Source of the DNA: Morinoia aosen
Lineage: Eukaryota; Arthropoda; Malacostraca; Amphipoda; Talitridae
Assembly (NCBI GenBank): GCA_030386875.1
Contig: CM059563.1
Span: forward strand, 15,642,001 to 15,706,000
Reading direction: 5' to 3'
DNA: 64,000 nucleotides
Part shown: piece by piece, positions 9,101-40,955 of the stretch
Numbering within the stretch: the first letter of the stretch is position 1
Layout of the letters: the number at the start of each line of letters is the position of its first letter
The notes under the pieces: model-generated
Seen by the model: only the letters and a program-made list of their open reading frames with translations
The model's database searches: none
What the model was told of the DNA's origin: nothing
Made by a program: the position numbers and the translations under genes

Positions 9101-10737
9101 TATGACCTCTATTAAATTACCCAAATCGAGTTTGTGTAGCTGGACGCTAGTTTGGCTCTCGCTGGAAAATCTGTTCCCGAGTTTTATGGAGTCGTTCGTT
9201 TGCATTCAGAGGAGACCGAGCCAGAGAATTGTGGGGCCTTGCGGCGACGCTTATATACCTACAGTAACGTTGGTATTAAGGCTGCAACATATGCATGTAA
9301 ATTGCAGAGTACATGCTGTATGGTGTACTTATAGGCGCTATTTAAAAGATGAAGTAAAATTCTAGGGAAATTAAAATTAACAAGCAAAATTTATTTCCCT
9401 GAAAACCATGACTTGAAACGCATAAAAAGCTCAGAAAAAACATATAAGTTGCCTTGCAAACGTGATTTTCCGCCCCTTGCATTTGTTCAACTTTGGGAAG
9501 TAATGGTTTCGACGCATGATTCGCTCAGCTAAGATTAAAAATACCCGGTAAGTATGCCCTGCTGGTATATACTTTGTCTATACTTAGTCCATATACATAT
9601 ATACGTTACGATCTTTAGTGTGACGTCATAGCTATGTTGCCTTGTCTCAGAGCAGGCCTGGAGGCATTGGTTCAGTGCCCAGCGCATTAACGAGCAGTGG
9701 TTCACTAAACTGAAATGATGTACATCTAGTTTAATTTAACAGTTAGGTCTCAACGTTATTTGATACCTCCCCAACAGAAGCATATTTTACACCGCGAGAA
9801 GTACGCTTTACATAATACAAAGAACTCAGATTTATAAAAGAAACGCGTTTAATTCCATTGTTTGGCGAACGGCTCCATCTGAGCAGGCCGATACATCCTT
9901 TGAGCCACAACTCTTCCCTTAATTACATGCTGCAGCCGGCATAAACGTAGCGTTCGGCGCAGTTCACAAGAGCGTACGTGTTGCGAGTGTGTGCTTCCCA
10001 CAAGCCAATGGTCGTCCTCCTGTATCAGTTAAAAAGTCGTTAAGAGCTGATATTTGGCGCACTTTTGAATTAGAGTTGCCTGCATCCGATGGACTTGACT
10101 ACGTCGCTAAGAATGTTTTTTATATGAAATCACATCTCTTCAATACATTAGCATCCACCGCAGGGTCACCCACGAAACGAAGACGCCAAATCGTCTCGTT
10201 CTATCGAGTTGGGGTGCAATAGTAGGTAACAGAACAGCTTTTGGGAAGGTTACTTGAGTTACTTATTTACAATTTTACAATAAACAGGCAGAGCCAAGAA
10301 GTAGTACTCGAAGAAGGGCAGATGCGAGTCTACATCATTTATAATACTCGTACTCATACTCGTACAGCTACAGTGGTTCTGACATGATGATGGAGCTCGT
10401 TATAAACTTGATGCTGTTCACTGCATACTGAATTGTTTTTCAATGTAGAGCTGTGTACAGTGAGGTACTGTACACTGAGGAGCCGTGTACATTGACATAC
10501 TACTCACTAAAAAGCTACACTGAGACGCTATTTAGTCAACTATGTGCTGTGCTGTATCGAGGTTAGCTGCACGCCTGTGTAGAAATTTAGCCATGATGGT
10601 AGAATCTCTTGCCTTAAACGGAACAAGAAGGAAGAAACTTAATGGAATAGTATGGTATAGCCAAAAAATATGAGACAATAACTTTGGGTTCCTTATTATT
10701 CTTCAGACATATTTCTTATGTTTCGCCATTTCACAGG

Positions 10738-10870
10738 GTTGTTTCCAGGCCTAAAATCCAAGGAGCTCAAGAAGGAGACAGCAGCTCAATCAGAACGAGA
10801 TAAACCCATTATAGCTTTGTGGTATCTCATCGTTGTCTTATTATATTCTTAGTTATCTTGCTTTCGATTG
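10738..10870 (+). pseudogene. Doubtful oldest decoy copy of the homeobox exon start (U0)
   Basis: A weak match to the unit described for 10871-11270. 'ttgtttccag' corresponds to the WFQ codons and 'ctcaagaaggaga' to the RKTE codons, and the spacing to the next copy (133 bp) fits the 130-bp period. It is preceded by 'tttcacag'. It is too diverged to be certain. Confidence 0.35.
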
Positions 10871-11010
10871 GTTTGGTTCCAGAACCGCAGGACGAAATAG
10901 CACAAAACGAAGAAGCTGTAACTGACTTACTGAATGCGGCTATTTCAAACAAGAATATCTCTGTGTTATATACTGTACAATTATTCAAAATAATTTGTTC
11001 CGTTGGCCAG
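10871..11010 (+). pseudogene. Decoy copy U1 of Vsx-A homeobox exon start plus intron tail
   Basis: The copy opens with codons for V-W-F-Q-N-R-R-T-K and then a TAG stop at 10898-10900, matching homeodomain residues 47-55 of the real exon at 11271. The following 110 bp align with the intron tail of the other copies ('aatgcgg', 'caagaata.ctctgt.tta') and end in GTTGGCCAG, an acceptor-like sequence. At 140 bp it is longer and more diverged than the next two units, so it is probably older. Confidence 0.85.
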
Positions 11011-11140
11011 ATATGAATCCAGAACCGGAGGGCGAAGTGGCGCAAGACGGAGAAACCGTAACTTGCCAACCCAATGCGGATAAGATCAATCAAGAATAGC
11101 TCTGTATTATCTATTCACGATAGTTGGTTTTGTTGGCCAG
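11011..11140 (+). pseudogene. Decoy copy U2 of Vsx-A homeobox exon start plus intron tail
   Basis: Exactly 130 bp. It is nearly identical to the functional exon over 'ccagaaccggagggcgaagt' and the next 17 bases, but the W48 codon has become TGA (11014-11016). A second in-frame stop (CCG TAA) follows the TEK codons. The remainder is intron-like and ends in TTGGCCAG directly before U3. If spliced in, it would stop translation inside the recognition helix. Confidence 0.9.
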
Positions 11141-11270
11141 ATTTGGTTCCAAAGCCGGAGGGCGAATTGTCGCAAGACGGAGAAACCGTAACTTGCCAAC
11201 CCAGTGCGGATAAGATCAATCAAGAATAGCTCTGTATTATCTATTCACGATAGTTTGTTTCGCTGGGCAG
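11141..11270 (+). pseudogene. Decoy copy U3 of Vsx-A homeobox exon start plus intron tail
   Basis: Exactly 130 bp, with about 12 differences from U2 by my count. It reads I-W-F-Q-S-R-R-A-N-C-R-K-T-E-K-P and then TAA at 11189-11191. The invariant N51 is replaced by S, and K55-W56 by N-C, so the DNA-recognition helix is damaged. Its last bases, CGCTGGGCAG, form the acceptor actually used by the functional exon at 11271. Confidence 0.9.
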
Positions 11271-11448
11271 GTGTGGTTCCAGAACCGGAGGGCGAAGTGG
11301 CGCAAGACAGAGAAGACGTGGGGCAAAAGCACCATCATGGCGGAGTACGGGCTATACGGCGCTATGGTGCGGCACTCCCTCCCGCTCCCGGACGCCATCA
11401 TCAAGAGCGTCGAGTCCGGCAGCGAGTGTCCAGCGCCCTGGCTCTTAG
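11271..11448 (+). CDS. Vsx: Vsx-A coding exon: homeodomain residues 47-60 and CVC domain (partial gene)
   Basis: The exon encodes the end of a Vsx/Chx10 paired-like homeodomain transcription factor, a nuclear regulator of retinal and interneuron progenitors in the animals studied. It opens in phase 0 after acceptor CTGGGCAG with [14 protein letters not shown], the recognition helix with Q50 and N51. This is the intron 46/47 site common in paired-class homeobox genes. The CVC domain, found only in Vsx/Chx10-type proteins, follows immediately ([14 protein letters not shown], then LPLPDAI, then CPAPWLLG). The exon stops after one base of a Gly codon at donor TTAG|GTCAGA. The reading frame runs open to 11717 without the splice, but the downstream part is AT-rich and intron-like. 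Family identity is near certain. Which paralogue (Vsx1 or Vsx2) cannot be told. The upstream exons lie outside the window or were not found. Confidence 0.95.
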
Positions 11449-11884: not shown

Positions 11885-12197
11885 GCATGCAAAAGAAAAG
11901 CGTGGAAGCCTCAAAGATGCTGCGCGGAGACGAGAAAGATGAAGTCGAACATTCTCCAAGAGTAACTTCAACTGAAGGAATTCATTCTCCTATTGAGAAA
12001 AGAATTCTTACTCCCCCGTTAGACGTTGAAAGTTTGCCTGAACAAGAAATGGAATCCCAATTTTTATCCAAAAGTGCAATCGATACAAAAGAACTGGCCA
12101 GAAGCAGCGTAGATCAAACCGATTCAAGCGACGCAGAAGACGTTCCTACATCCTCGCTACAAATGACATCAGAACGCCAGAATAGCGATCTTTGGTG
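11885..12197 (+). CDS. Vsx: Vsx-A coding exon: end of CVC domain and acidic Ser-rich linker
   Basis: Acceptor GAGAGCAG|GC at 11884/11885 completes the split Gly codon and continues directly with MQKKSVEASK, matching the GMHKKSLEA tail of the vertebrate CVC domain. The phase and homology together fix this junction. The rest is a hydrophilic linker rich in Glu, Asp and Ser, with a TDSSDAEDV stretch and no recognised domain. The best donor is TTGGTG|GTGAGT, ending the exon after TG of a codon. If the donor were skipped, the frame would reach a TGA stop three bases later (Trp-Trp-stop), so a shorter isoform ending here is possible. Confidence 0.9.
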
Positions 12198-12503
12198 GTG
12201 AGTTGTCATTTAGTTAGGATTTTCCAATCCTGTCTCATGTCATCCCACGAAGCGTGCAAATAATTTGGGAAGAATAAGGTAACAAATGAATGAAACACGC
12301 GAATGACGTTTTGAATACTAAATTTTTATTGTTCCATACACTATACGTTTGTTTTAATCAGTTGTTCTGCGCAGTGCACTTTGATAATTACGCTTATAAA
12401 TCAAATTGCATTTATTTCTTACCATGAATTATAATACTTCAATGTTGTTTGCATGCGATACAACCAGGCCTTACTGATAAAAGTCTTCGTCTGATTGTTT
12501 CAG

Positions 12504-12900
12504 TCTTCGCCTTCCAAGAGAGCATTATGTGGAAAACGCAGACACAGCGACTGGAAAACGAGCGGGAGTCTCATCAGATTCAAGACATGTACCCGACCTG
12601 CCACCACCACCACCTCTGTCATCAACATCCAGACTGGTGTCTCACTTCTCAAATGCTCACGATTATTTACATCCTTCTATTTCTGATGCTTATTCTCTGG
12701 GTTGGTCTTTGCAACAAGGTTTCCAATATCAATTCCCTGAGTCGAGATCATTTTCGTTTGGGAATTTCTTACATCCACGAGCTGCCTGCATCTATCCTCC
12801 CGTCAGCAAAACGTATGAGGACGTCCCAATGTGTCTTCCGTCTACTTCAGATTTCTCTCGAGCACAATTTTCAAATCCCTTTTCCAAAGCCCGACTCTAA
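12504..12900 (+). CDS. Vsx: Vsx-A last coding exon, C-terminus and stop
   Basis: The acceptor GATTGTTTCAG precedes 12504. Its first base completes the Cys codon left open by the previous exon, and the frame then runs to TAA at 12898-12900. About 131 residues are encoded. They include a proline run (DLPPPPPLSS), then a segment rich in Ser, Phe, Tyr and His (for example SDAYSLGWSLQQGFQYQFPE), and end in NPFSKARL. I recognise no domain here; Vsx C-termini vary strongly between phyla. Two other overlapping open frames (12449-12904 and 12495-12686) are shadows. The placement rests on matching splice phase and coding-like composition rather than homology. Confidence 0.8.
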
Positions 12901-16394: not shown

Positions 16395-16829
16395 CTAAAA
16401 TAGCTGAAGGGGGAATGCAGACGGACTATCATTCAAAACCGTTTTTTCAGTTAAAATATACAAAGATTCTAAAATACGAAGTTTAATAATACCAGATGTG
16501 GATGCAATTATTTTAAAATCGTTTAAGCGCACTGAAAGATCGCATTTCTCTGCATGAGAACGGATGGCAGAATGAGATGGCGTAGAGAGAAGGAGGCCTG
16601 TTCTAAAACACCTACCAGCATGCTCAGCAACGCGAATACTAAGGGCCCGTTTTGTTGAGCCCACGTACTCAGACGCGCAACGTGCGCAACAATATTTGTA
16701 GATAACAGATGAGAGCATGCCTTTGGGAGTTTTATCCTTATAATTGAAATATGACCCTATTTCGAGCGTATTGACCTGTATAATTTTGAAATCTATATGC
16801 ATGAAATGTTTAAATAATAGTAAATGCAT
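16395..16829 (-). pseudogene. GIY-YIG endonuclease fragment of Penelope-like element (inverted copy)
   Basis: 144 codons read on the minus strand. The visible GIY-YIG features are VIYKYCCARC with a Cys-x-x-Cys pair, then EYVGSTKRALSIRVAEH with the YVG motif and the conserved Arg, then a His/Cys segment (AIRSHAEKC) and ILESL with the catalytic Glu. It is the same protein end as the + strand copy at 17224-17763, with a few substitutions and a slightly different end (LQLF instead of LQLV). The reverse transcriptase part is missing, so this is a fragment. Confidence 0.85.
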
Positions 16830-16831
16830 TT

Positions 16832-17161
16832 TATAGGAGGTACGTTGACGATACGTTTTTACTGTTTAAGAGCAGTTCTCATTGCAATCTTTTTTTAGAC
16901 TACATGAATGCCCAACACCCTAATATAAAATTTACCATGGAGACTGAAGTAAATGGTAGTCTTCCATTTCTGGATGCCCTTATTACTCGCAACAATGGCA
17001 GATTTCACAGTTCAGTCTTTCGTAAACCTACTTTCACATGGCTTGGGATCAGTTTTTTTAGTTTTTGCACTTTCAGATTCAAAATGAACAGCATCAAGAC
17101 TTTACTTTCCAGGGCATATGTTCATCATTTTCCTCTCTTCATAAAGAATTTGATATTTTGA
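16832..17161 (+). pseudogene. Penelope-like reverse transcriptase fragment
   Basis: The frame is open from the inverted-repeat junction. It reads RRYVDDTFLLF (YVDD catalytic box at 16841-16852), then NAQHPNIKFTME, LPFLDALI, a SVFRKPTFT segment and FRFKMNSIKTLL, all in the order typical of the C-terminal half of Penelope reverse transcriptase. The fingers and upper palm are missing because the element starts here. The frame ends in TGA at about 17161, after a probable frameshift near 17130. Confidence 0.85.
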
Positions 17162-17223
17162 AATGTTTTTTTAGATGCAACGGTTTTCCCTGCTAACTCA
17201 TTGATTCAGCTATTAAAAATTTC

Positions 17224-17763
17224 TTGAATAATAAATTTTACAGCAAGATAAATTCATGCTTAGCCAATAAAAAGCCGTTTTACCTGACATTACCGTATTT
17301 TGGGTACAAATCGGAAAAACTGAAAAAGGAATTGCATTTACTATTATCTAAACATTTCATGCATATATTTCAAAATTATATTGGTCAATACGTTCAAATA
17401 GGGTCATATTTCAATTATAAGGATAAAACTCGCGAAGACATGCTCTCATCTGTTATCTACAAATATTGTTGCGCACGTTGCGCGTCTGAGTACGTGGGCT
17501 CAACAAAACGGGCCCTTAGTATTCGCGTTGCTGAGCATGCTGGTAGGTGTTTTAGAACAGGCCTCCTTCTCTCTACGCCATCTCATTCTGCCATCCGTTC
17601 TCATGCAGAGAAATGCGATCTTTCAGTGCGCTTAAACGATTTTAAAATAATTGCATCCACATCTGGTATTATTAAACTTCGTATTTTAGAATCTTTGTAT
17701 ATTTTAACTGAAAAAACGGTTTTGAATGATAGTCAGTCTGCATTCCCCCTTCAGCTAGTTTAG
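17224..17763 (+). pseudogene. Penelope-like element C-terminus with GIY-YIG endonuclease
   Basis: 179 codons without an internal stop, in a different frame from the upstream reverse transcriptase fragment. The first 50 residues (for example PFYLTLPYFGYKSEKL) are the connector between the reverse transcriptase and the endonuclease. The GIY-YIG domain follows: VIYKYCCARC, YVGSTKRALSIRVAEH, AIRSHAEKC, then ILESL with the catalytic Glu. In an intact element it nicks target DNA for insertion. The domain looks intact here, but the upstream protein is truncated and frameshifted. Confidence 0.85.
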
Positions 17764-37236: not shown

Positions 37237-37736
37237 TCAGGTGGCTCTGAAGCGGACATGCAATGTTCAACAAAGTACGATTTTGCCAAAGAAAACGAAG
37301 CATCTATAAAACTCTTAAAATCCATATGAAGCTCATTTTTGCTGAATAACAATAAAATTGAAAACTATGAAAACCTGGAAAGTAGTAACATGTCCCGTAA
37401 TCGAAATCAACAAGTTTGAATGGGTTATAAGTATTTTAATTTTGGTGAATTTTATTGTTTTATCAAATGAAATTTCATAGCTAGCCCTTGTCTTACAAAA
37501 ATTAATCACCACAATTGTCAGACTTGTATCCACGGAGTAAATACGATATCCTCAAAAACGCAGACATATTTAATAAAAAGACTTCAGATTCGTGAAATTA
37601 GCTCTTGAGGTATGAAAAAACAAACACGCAGTTAATTAAAAGTTACTTTGAGCGCCTCATTACGCCCAGTACGCGTAGCGACACAACAATTCCGACCAAG
37701 AATTACATTGAAGCATTGGACTTTTTTTCCGCAACG

Positions 37737-38121
37737 ATGGACCGCGGAGGCCTGCACGTCTCCCCGTCGCTGCAGGCAGCTCATGCCCACATGACGGCCC
37801 TCACAGCCCCCTCTCTGCCGCAACGCAGCCCTTTTGCCATCCAGGAACTTTTGGGCTTGAACAACCAGGGGGAATCTTGCCCACCTTCTATTAGCCAAGG
37901 CGGCTCCCTGGGTGCGGCGCCCCCTCTCATCTACTCCCGACACGCTCTGGCGGCACAGCAGGCCGCTGCCGCACCATTTTTCCCAGACTCCCGACACATG
38001 TGGATGAATCATGCGTTCCTTCCCAGCATGGGGGGCATCTCCCCCGTGGGGGGAGCCGTGTCAGGGGTCACGTCCATGCTGGGACTCCGACACGAACACC
38101 CGCCGCAGCCTCACAGCCCTG
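37737..38121 (+). CDS. Vsx: Vsx-B first coding exon with octapeptide motif (partial gene)
   Basis: The exon encodes the N-terminal 128 residues of a second Vsx-family homeodomain protein. Residues 31-41 read SPFAIQELLGL, the eh1-like octapeptide typical of Vsx proteins (vertebrate GFGIQEILGL), a motif that recruits Groucho-type corepressors in related factors. The remainder is rich in Pro, Ala, Gly and His, including an AAQQAAAA run and MWMNHAFLPSMGG. The ATG at 37737 is the first in frame after a TAG at 37599 and has A at -3 and G at +4. The exon ends at donor CCTG|GTGAGT after one base of a codon. No homeodomain exon was found in the following 26 kb. Rx or Arx-type octapeptides differ (SIDxILG), so Vsx is the best call. 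The minus-strand frame at 37632-38012 is a shadow. Confidence 0.85.
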
Positions 38122-40955
38122 GTGAGTACGCTTCCCTCACTATACTCCTCTTACAATAGAGCAGTTTAAGCTTTCTTGCCGAATTTCGATTAGGCGCATT
38201 TCAAATTAACGTTGAATGACTCAAGAAATTGTATTCTTCCCTCACAACTTTTATTACAATAAAGCAGTTTATGCGTTTTTACAGAATTCGTTTATTTATT
38301 TCGAAAAGCCAGGTTTCAAAATAGCGTTGAATTGTACGGACGTGGTGATAAAAATAGATTTGCTGTAAAATTGCTCACACTGATTTAAATTGCTATTTAA
38401 ACAGGAACATGGTCATATCTTTATGGTGTGAAAGGTGATAAATTGTTTTTTTCTTGTTTTTTTTAAACAATTGTTTTAAAAGCATCTTGTTTTTTTTAAA
38501 GCAGCATAAAAATGCACCTGATATTTTGTAAATGCTTAAAGATCTATCTATGCTGAGTAGCTGCTTTAATGAGTGAATATATTTTACTGAATTTAATGCT
38601 GGTCATGAAAGAAGAAATCCCGGCTTCAACGCTATGTGACAAATGAAATATTTTTCGGTTTCATTTCGGTACAGTTTTTGGATTCATTTTCAATGATTCT
38701 GTGCATTTTATTCGTGAGAAAACTTCTAAATGGGTGCGAGTAAAATTTTTCGAGCATTATTGAATAGGAAAATAGGAATGAATAGTTTTCGTGTCATTGA
38801 TAAGGAGAGAAGACTTGCGTAATTCCAGGTTATTATATTAAGCACGAATGTTAACCCTTTAACGCCCACATTTTTATACTCATATTACCGTTATGACAAC
38901 CACTATCACTAAACCGACACTGGCATTAGGTAGTCACTGTTATCAAGATGGGGAAGGAACTGCCACTCGGTAGTGCAGTTCAAAGGACACATTAGTGAAC
39001 AAATTGAAGAAGAAATAAGATATATTATTGTTATTTTGAAAAAGACGAAATAGTCCAGTTGGGCAGTAAAGGGTTAAAGAATTTATTCATGCTTTATGTA
39101 GAATCTCCGGCTCGTAGCAGAGGCACGTTCATACTTATAAGCAATTCAATATATTTTTCCAGAACAAATGAAATATAGTTAAACTTATTTGGGAAATATT
39201 TCTATCTTATAATAAATACTACAATGATGATAATTTAAAATGATTTAATAAAAAACTGGGTAAGTTTTTGTTAACACAATTACGCCATCCCATGAGCTCC
39301 TGCGTTCACTGATACTTAAACGTGGCTCGTCAGATCCGTAGACTTTCTCCTCATTTTGCAAAGCTAAATCAAGTAAGAATGATTACGATTCGCGTATCGT
39401 AAAACTGATCTGAATTATAGAAAAACAATCCCTCGAATGAAAAACGCTAACAATAAATTAATTGTAAAAATTTGTTACGCTTAAAAAATATAAGCTTTTA
39501 CAGCTTTTTGATTGGAAATAAACTCGTGAAACGGTAGGACAATGCCGTGATTTTTTGTGCCGAACTATGAATTCAATTGTGATTTCTCACCTCGGAATGA
39601 TAAATAAATTACTGAGAAAGATGAATTGCTATGATGCACAGCTGAAATGCGGGATATATCTCGAGTGATAAATAAAAATACATTAGTGTATATTAACAAC
39701 ATCGATGAACTAAATGAAATGAAATGAACAAATGAACAACATCGTGAACCTTCATGTGCACGGCGCAAATGAAGAGAATTCCATACTAGCAAAAAATTTC
39801 CTGAGTTTTCAATAATAATTTTTTGAAGGAAATAAATACCAAAATTATTATTTTAAGAACAAACTAGTATCATGAAAACAAAAAACCACACATTTTAAAC
39901 AGATCTACTTCTGAAATATTTACTCTGATTGACATAACCCCCAAAAAAGAGGTTCGCAGGCATGTGCATGTTTTCAAGTCAGTACCATTTCAATTAAGTT
40001 GTAATTATCGCTGCTGTGAATTTTTGCCAGTGCTGAAAACATTTCCGTATGTTCAAAACGGTCACTGCGTTGAAACTGAAATGAGTTAAACTCAGAGAAA
40101 ATTAAAACCAAATACTGTTTTTACGCTCCAGTATAATTTTCAAGCACAGTAAGCTAAAGGGTGATTTTTTTATGTCAAAATCGATCACTCGTAAAATCTT
40201 TGTAGGCTTGAAAATTTCTGAAGTTAGCAGATGGGGAAGAAGACTTGAACTACCGTGGATATATGTAGTTAACTGAAATTATCGTCAATTAACGTCTGTT
40301 TATATTCATCACTACTGTGAGTTATGGGAACTACCAAGCATTTACGTGCACAATTTTAGGGAGACTGTCACAGGAACGCTGTTTTTACGCATACTTCAAG
40401 ATATTTAAATTTTGATTCATATACCTTTTCAGTATACTAAAAATTTATGGTAAATATTTACTCTTTTTTCGCAATTTACTTCCTCATTTCGCTATCGCCA
40501 CTTGCAAGTAATTTCACTTAACGCGTGTGATTCGCACGAGCATAGAACTATTCATGATCGAGCAATTCATATTTATCATATCATGAGATAGTATTTATTG
40601 TTTTTTACTGTACTTTTGTGTGTGCGCGCATAACTGGCTGCGTCAATTTTAGTGTTGCTTAAATGTGACGAAACTCAGCAGCTTCCAAGTTTTGAGCATA
40701 ATCACTCACCACTGCATGTTGCACTTGCGACTCGCCGGATGTTATGGTCCTTTCTGTCAAATAATTATAATTATTATTGCCGACTATTGATATTTTACAT
40801 CTTTTTCTTGTCGTAGGAAATGAACAAAAATCAAGAAAATATTTATTTCGAAAAATGGGGGTAAAAAATAATTTTTTATTCTTGCTGATTATCAACTATA
40901 CTTCAATAGGTTTTATGAATATCCCATCTGGTTCGAAACGTAGTTTCGGGGTCAT

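Follow-up and report, generated by a model that had tools for sequence, protein, structure and literature searches.

Three broken copies of the start of a homeobox exon stand in tandem directly in front of the intact exon of an amphipod gene that we call Vsx-A (we take the gene to be Vsx), and this array is very probably a 'mirage', a minisatellite spanning an intron–exon boundary, with a single origin, later gene conversion between Vsx-A and a sister gene, Vsx-B, and tolerance on the part of splicing. The window, meaning the whole 64,000-nucleotide stretch of Morinoia aosen DNA that was analysed, holds one of four such arrays that a DNA search of the genome (1.99 Gb in 29 contigs) located, all on one contig: A1, in the window; A2, in a second copy of the Vsx-A locus 1.40 Mb from A1; and B1 and B2, in the copies of Vsx-B that lie near each A copy, where the array sits at the same intron end as in Vsx-A. 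The main interest of the case is this neighbouring sister gene, with its same repeat and its apparent exchange of DNA. Pfam recognises the homeodomain only. The units and exons of the window copy are as follows.

10760..10827, plus strand: possible degenerate older unit (weak), a local match to U2
10871..11010, plus strand: decoy U1, its first ~50 nt resembling the start of Vsx-A exon 3, the remainder intron tail
11011..11140, plus strand: decoy U2, with TTGGCCAG just before it and TGA as its second codon
11141..11270, plus strand: decoy U3, with TTGGCCAG just before it and a stop after 16 codons
~11206-11270, plus strand: tail of U3, in use as the intron end of exon 3 and part of the A/B identity tract
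11271..11448, plus strand: intact Vsx-A exon 3, coding for the homeodomain from its residue 47 onward and for what comes after it, in 59 codons and one base
11449, plus strand: donor GT of Vsx-A exon 3
11885..12197, plus strand: next Vsx-A exon, in which the reading frame continues, with donor GT at 12198 (splice sites read from sequence)
12504..12900, plus strand: last Vsx-A exon in the present reading, up to the stop (splice site read from sequence)

The decoys and the intact exon were found at just the positions that a first-pass annotation had given (10871, 11011, 11141 and 11271), spaced at 140, 130 and 130 bp, and the tandem unit, as in a mirage, consists of intron end and exon start: about 50 nt of exon, then a short stretch, then the intron tail. 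The repetition lies beyond chance, with a TRF score of 526, and the start of exon 3 scores 70 against the 330 nt upstream of it, where 100 shuffles reach at most 24; the preceding homeobox exon lies ~18.8 kb upstream. All reading frames are broken, as had been described, U1 by a TAG after nine codons, U2 by the TGA at its second codon and U3, which reads IWFQSRRANCRKTEKP, by the stop that follows. The estimate of about 12 differences in 130 between U2 and U3 agrees with the aligned count of 12/130 (7/50 in the core and 5/80 in the tail), and the resemblance claimed between U2 and the coding core of the true exon is borne out by the lack of any difference over nt 8-38. Other details hold in part. 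The ending (T/C)TGG(C/G)CAG, ascribed to every unit, is present before U2, U3 and the exon (where the bases are CTGGGCAG) but not before U1, where TTTCGATTG stands and AG is lacking; the A2 counterpart reads TTTCGATAG. Likewise, the N51S and W56C changes in U3 are real in the window copy but private to it, since A2 reads IWFQNRRANWRKTKKP followed by a stop. No unit begins at 10738, where a doubtful fourth copy had been placed, although older units have probably left faint remnants in the 500 nt before U1: U2 as query scores 34 at 10760-10827 (maximum 30.5 in 200 dinucleotide shuffles), U1 finds its best match elsewhere, at ~10410-10474 (32.5 against a shuffle maximum of 32), and two Vsx-B units match more weakly, at scores reached by 3/200 and 13/200 shuffles.

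Mirages have been described from lancelets, in Adh3, the globin genes BflGb6 and BflGb9, PGBD5 and TnC (PMC3087553, PMC3902484), as minisatellite-like tandem duplications of an intron–exon boundary that are unstable in length (PMC3087553). The BflGb6 unit measures 150-160 bp and occurs as six and three units in two haplotypes, and many units carry AG/GT signals, inner units are homogenised, both exon edges are hit and RT-PCR suggests that splicing is undisturbed (PMC3087553, PMC3902484). The Vsx arrays share the structural traits, being boundary-spanning tandem repeats. The two Vsx-B copies have three decoys (B1) and 12 (B2) and the Vsx-A copies three each, a difference that would amount to length instability if the 1.40-Mb pairs are alleles; the 12 is the least certain of the decoy counts. 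An AG precedes many, not all, of the units (2/3 in A1, 3/3 in A2, 2/3 in B1 and 11/12 in B2), and both sides of homeobox exons are affected in this genome. In Vsx-B copy 2 (C8:14375490-14377058) the inner units are nearly identical and the edge units diverged, whereas the Vsx-A array, which is short, shows no clear homogenisation. Within that copy, frame-open units (U5, U11 and U12) are scattered among TGA-bearing ones, and U5 and U11, six units apart, have the same sequence, which would fit duplication of a block of six units.

Set against the lancelet examples, the present array differs in lying in a homeobox gene of an arthropod, in being common to a tandem sister gene and in having a conversion tract end inside it, and it is known here from DNA alone. 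Searches of the open-licence literature by mirage terms found no mirage beyond lancelets. In lancelets, such boundary-spanning minisatellites have been described as one way in which new introns might arise, and in the potato RdRp gene an intron is reported to have been gained through tandem duplication across a boundary (PMC4974935); the duplicated copy in potato turned into a new intron, of which the Vsx array gives no sign. The decoy exons in retained introns of OGT resemble the Vsx decoys as splice-site-like sequence inside an intron, but the account of OGT gives them both splice sites and experimental support (PMC12017769), whereas for the Vsx decoys the evidence is a set of acceptor scores within the range of real sites. 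Here a probable mirage, of a kind that recurs at several edges of homeobox exons in an arthropod, differs in copy number between two copies of one gene and contains the end of a probable conversion tract. One genome thereby poses two testable questions: by what means splicing gets past as many as eleven copies that carry acceptors, and whether such repeats steer conversion between developmental paralogues.

The array would have begun when a segment of ~130 bp that took in the intron tail, the acceptor and ~50 nt of exon start underwent tandem duplication, after which only the copy adjoining the rest of the exon would have remained a working exon, the upstream copies becoming intron, drifting and altering in number by unequal exchange. 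The shared position of the array, at one intron end in both genes, makes a single origin most likely, whether that origin preceded the Vsx-A/Vsx-B split or lay in one gene, from which conversion later carried the array to the other. Splicing probably passes the decoys, presumably through exon definition, since only the last copy precedes a complete exon. Conversion between the genes, in either direction, would later have evened out exon 3 and ~65 bp of intron, with its upstream end inside the last decoy.

The case for this exchange comes from the contrast between two exons. When 36 kb of Vsx-A were compared with 30 kb of Vsx-B by blastn, similarity was found only in exon 2 and in the array with exon 3 (tblastx listed further short matches), and the two exons behave very differently: 36/126 nt differ between the genes in exon 2 and 3/177 in exon 3, with ~65 bp of adjoining intron also near-identical. 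The contrast starts inside the last decoy, 20/64 columns differing before and 4/245 after the best cut in the last decoy and exon, a cut chosen to maximise the contrast, and the longest identical run covers 112 columns (permutation p 0.0004). Near-identity of exon 3 and its intron end, divergence of exon 2 and a break inside the last decoy together point to gene conversion, with the excess identity, silent sites included, and the sharp end expected of a tract, as read from A and B alone and with the cut picked for contrast. That selection alone keeps exon 3 alike is unlikely. In its favour, 59/59 residues are identical across all four loci and the matching intron includes the working splice region, but silent sites agree too (among degenerate codons for the same residue, 3/53 differ in exon 3 and 17/32 in exon 2, p 1e-6) and the break and the long run fall as described. 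The earlier hint of conversion between U2 and the exon is thus redirected: for that pair selection on the exon alone suffices, and the real signal lies between Vsx-A and Vsx-B. The pattern resembles that reported for the linked Capitella Dlx genes, in which excess nucleotide identity, silent sites included, covers part of the homeobox and the adjoining intron while the remainder is diverged (PMC3199776); that tract lies in the 5' part of the homeobox of inverted genes, whereas in Vsx it lies in the 3' part, in same-strand genes, and breaks off inside a repeat array.

Gene conversion and the origin of the array are separate matters. Tail sequence common to the A and B units makes a single origin likely, and a tree of 16/21 units, in which units group by gene with weak support (81/62), does not settle the point, origin before the A/B split and later transfer both being possible. 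Immediately upstream of U1, a 70-nt comparison of A and B was equalled by 0/200 shuffles, the segment having been chosen after the match was seen, and over 500 nt by 56/200; in the intron downstream of exon 3 no A/B similarity was detected (147/200 shuffles as good). The idea that the U1 tail of Vsx-A is closer to Vsx-B units finds no support in the counts, with 19/79 and 20/79 differences to A units and 18-23 of 75-81 to B units. A search with the Vsx-A protein did not find the next exon of Vsx-B.

Repeats of this kind are found at other exon edges in the genome. Copies of the exon start were detected upstream of 3/35 acceptors tested (35 of 40 had sufficient exon), in Vsx-A, Vsx-B and a gene, presumably Rx-like, at L043 (C11:30356150, minus strand), where two decoys of the recognition-helix exon lie at -272 and -135, each after CAG and with a period close to that of the Vsx arrays. 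Copies of the exon end were detected downstream of 5/22 donors tested, one of them (L140) marginal; the 22 include five Vsx donors, three of 20 fetched donors having been unplaced and L142 placed 25 nt too far downstream. Two of 19 loci surveyed for the exon motif lacked it. Arrays in register with the true acceptor precede Vsx-A exon 2, as 4.6 copies of 52 bp with units ending TGCACAG or TGCGCAG (L060:1097-1337; C8:15634097-15634337), the exon of L115 (C17), as 16.8 copies of 30 bp running up to it over positions 1-503, and the exon of L109 (C3), as several units with TATCGCAG and an exon-like start. On the donor side, Vsx-A exon 2 has a degenerate copy at +104 to +142, and L140, L141 and L152 have repeats in register with exon end and donor.

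An idea raised after the arrays had been seen, that they are born specifically at acceptors, was dropped in the absence of significant enrichment over random positions. At a score threshold of 34, a tandem repeat is present at 6/40 acceptors, 3/22 donors and 15.3% of 2100 random positions, the last figure falling to 63/1500 once two intron segments of Vsx-B that are rich in repeats (58% and 28%) and raise it unduly are taken out. Against a control of 38 independent loci (three of 41 being omitted as neighbours or near-duplicates), in which 114/1520 random positions (7.5%) have one, neither acceptors (5/38 with two exon-3 sites excluded, p 0.21) nor donors (3/22, p 0.23) nor both jointly (8/60, p 0.13) are significantly enriched; a twofold excess is compatible with this control, though not shown. 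In a shifted-position control the rates are 18.5% for 200 shifted positions and 15% for the 40 acceptors, but a shifted position can fall in the same array, which confounds the comparison.

Since splice sites show no significant excess of tandem repeats, neutral repeat turnover is favoured over the alternative that the decoys tune splicing, whereby use of a decoy acceptor would yield either a homeodomain cut short or a transcript subject to NMD and copy number would set Vsx output. We regard such tuning as quite improbable, although several decoys fall within the range of real acceptors when only intron bases are scored: against 31 of the 40 acceptors (six Vsx sites, L043, L109 and L115 being set aside), Vsx-A decoys with AG reach the 19-71% range of real sites and tested Vsx-B decoys 58-71%, compared with 74-84% for the true exons, and Vsx-B decoys with an intact TTGGGCAG number 11 in one copy and two in the other. 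When exon bases are included, in a model of 38 of the 40 fetched homeobox acceptors (one without AG and one identical duplicate dropped) that contains exon bases typical of homeobox exons, Vsx-A decoys with AG fall to percentiles of only 8-26%, with Vsx-B decoys with AG at 42-79% and true exons at 84-87%. Moreover, Vsx-A decoys are not visibly constrained, because the array is as variable between A1 and A2 (9/335 differences) as the intron further upstream (40/1210 and 66/1299). The 0/244 count for the last 65 bp of intron and exon 3 says little by itself, because the downstream intron also differs at only 2/431. Between the Vsx-B copies, three unit pairs differ at 3/132, 1/131 and 3/126 and the flanks at 8/1351 and 27/1948. 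Against tuning also stand the loss-of-sense changes of U3, private to one copy, and the lancelet mirages, which are reported to leave splicing undisturbed (PMC3087553). What the first-pass annotation said of the duplication, of acceptor-like ends and of broken frames thus stands, and of its two interpretations a neutral product of slippage has more in its favour than regulation, given the lack of visible constraint, the private mutations and the lack of significant enrichment.

A broader functional reading, very doubtful in our view, would make the array a working element: a homology patch where conversion tracts start or end, keeping the recognition-helix exon of two old sister genes identical, with AG/GT junctions that could be used, optionally, as decoys or as splice sites of zero length and with the three and 12 decoys forming an allelic series for Vsx-B output. 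Most likely the array has no directed function, repeat turnover setting its length, selection keeping the last copy and splicing passing the others, and its visible consequence is most likely to be the homology patch in which the A/B conversion tract ends.

It is extremely improbable that the AG/GT junctions are zero-length recursive splice sites, at which exon 2 would join a decoy, regenerate a donor and then be spliced to the true exon. Exon 2 ends CAG in both genes and four Vsx-B units read CAG/GTGTGG, whose intron side stands at 67% of 18 real donors, but most Vsx-B units read GTTTGA (6%), Vsx-A U2 and U3 begin AT, not GT, and ratchet points are described for long introns rather than tandem arrays (PMC8605326). 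The donor model, built from 18 of 20 donors (L142 and L143 left out), scores the true exon 3 donors at 3.5 (A) and 1.5 (B), its own lowest donor at 6.4, a GT within the A array at 5.5 and CAG/GTGTGG in the Vsx-B units at 12.8, and so speaks against a lack of usable donors in the decoys as the reason for their being passed; small splice models such as these cannot explain why the decoys would be passed, because the true exon 3 donors score below the model donors and some GT sites in the array. In the A-type decoys GTAACT was considered as a donor and rejected, since its intron side stands at 17% of real donors and its score turns strongly negative once exon bases are counted. Open Vsx-B decoys might supply an alternative last exon; of the four units with an open frame, one has R53W.

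An assembly artefact is scarcely credible as the source of the array, for although the 1.40-Mb pairing shows that unmerged haplotypes may be present, diverged units (U2 and U3 at 12/130) stand at four loci with differing copy numbers, and a simple error is countered by the three decoys of A2 and the corresponding array in Vsx-B. The 1.40-Mb pairs are alleles or a segmental duplication. Unmerged haplotypes are suggested, with recent segmental duplication the alternative, because many homeobox exons form pairs of the same score within a few Mb, on other contigs too (for example C6:97576369/98410520, C4:83014367/85352554, C14:47618308/48460183 and C24:88658530/89761767).

Elsewhere in the window, an open frame at 37602-38159 (plus strand) includes PFAIQELLGLN, which we take to be a Vsx N-terminal motif, and is a possible first exon of Vsx-B; it gave no Pfam match. 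Two further open frames, at 16395-16865 (minus strand) and 17197-17763 (plus strand), likewise gave no Pfam match but have a long near-identical peptide stretch in common, and may represent a mobile element present as two inverted copies. In the wider genome, one Hox gene suggests an arthropod or close kin, for it matches Ultrabithorax from the Protein Data Bank at 74/75 aligned residues, including the stretch after the homeodomain.
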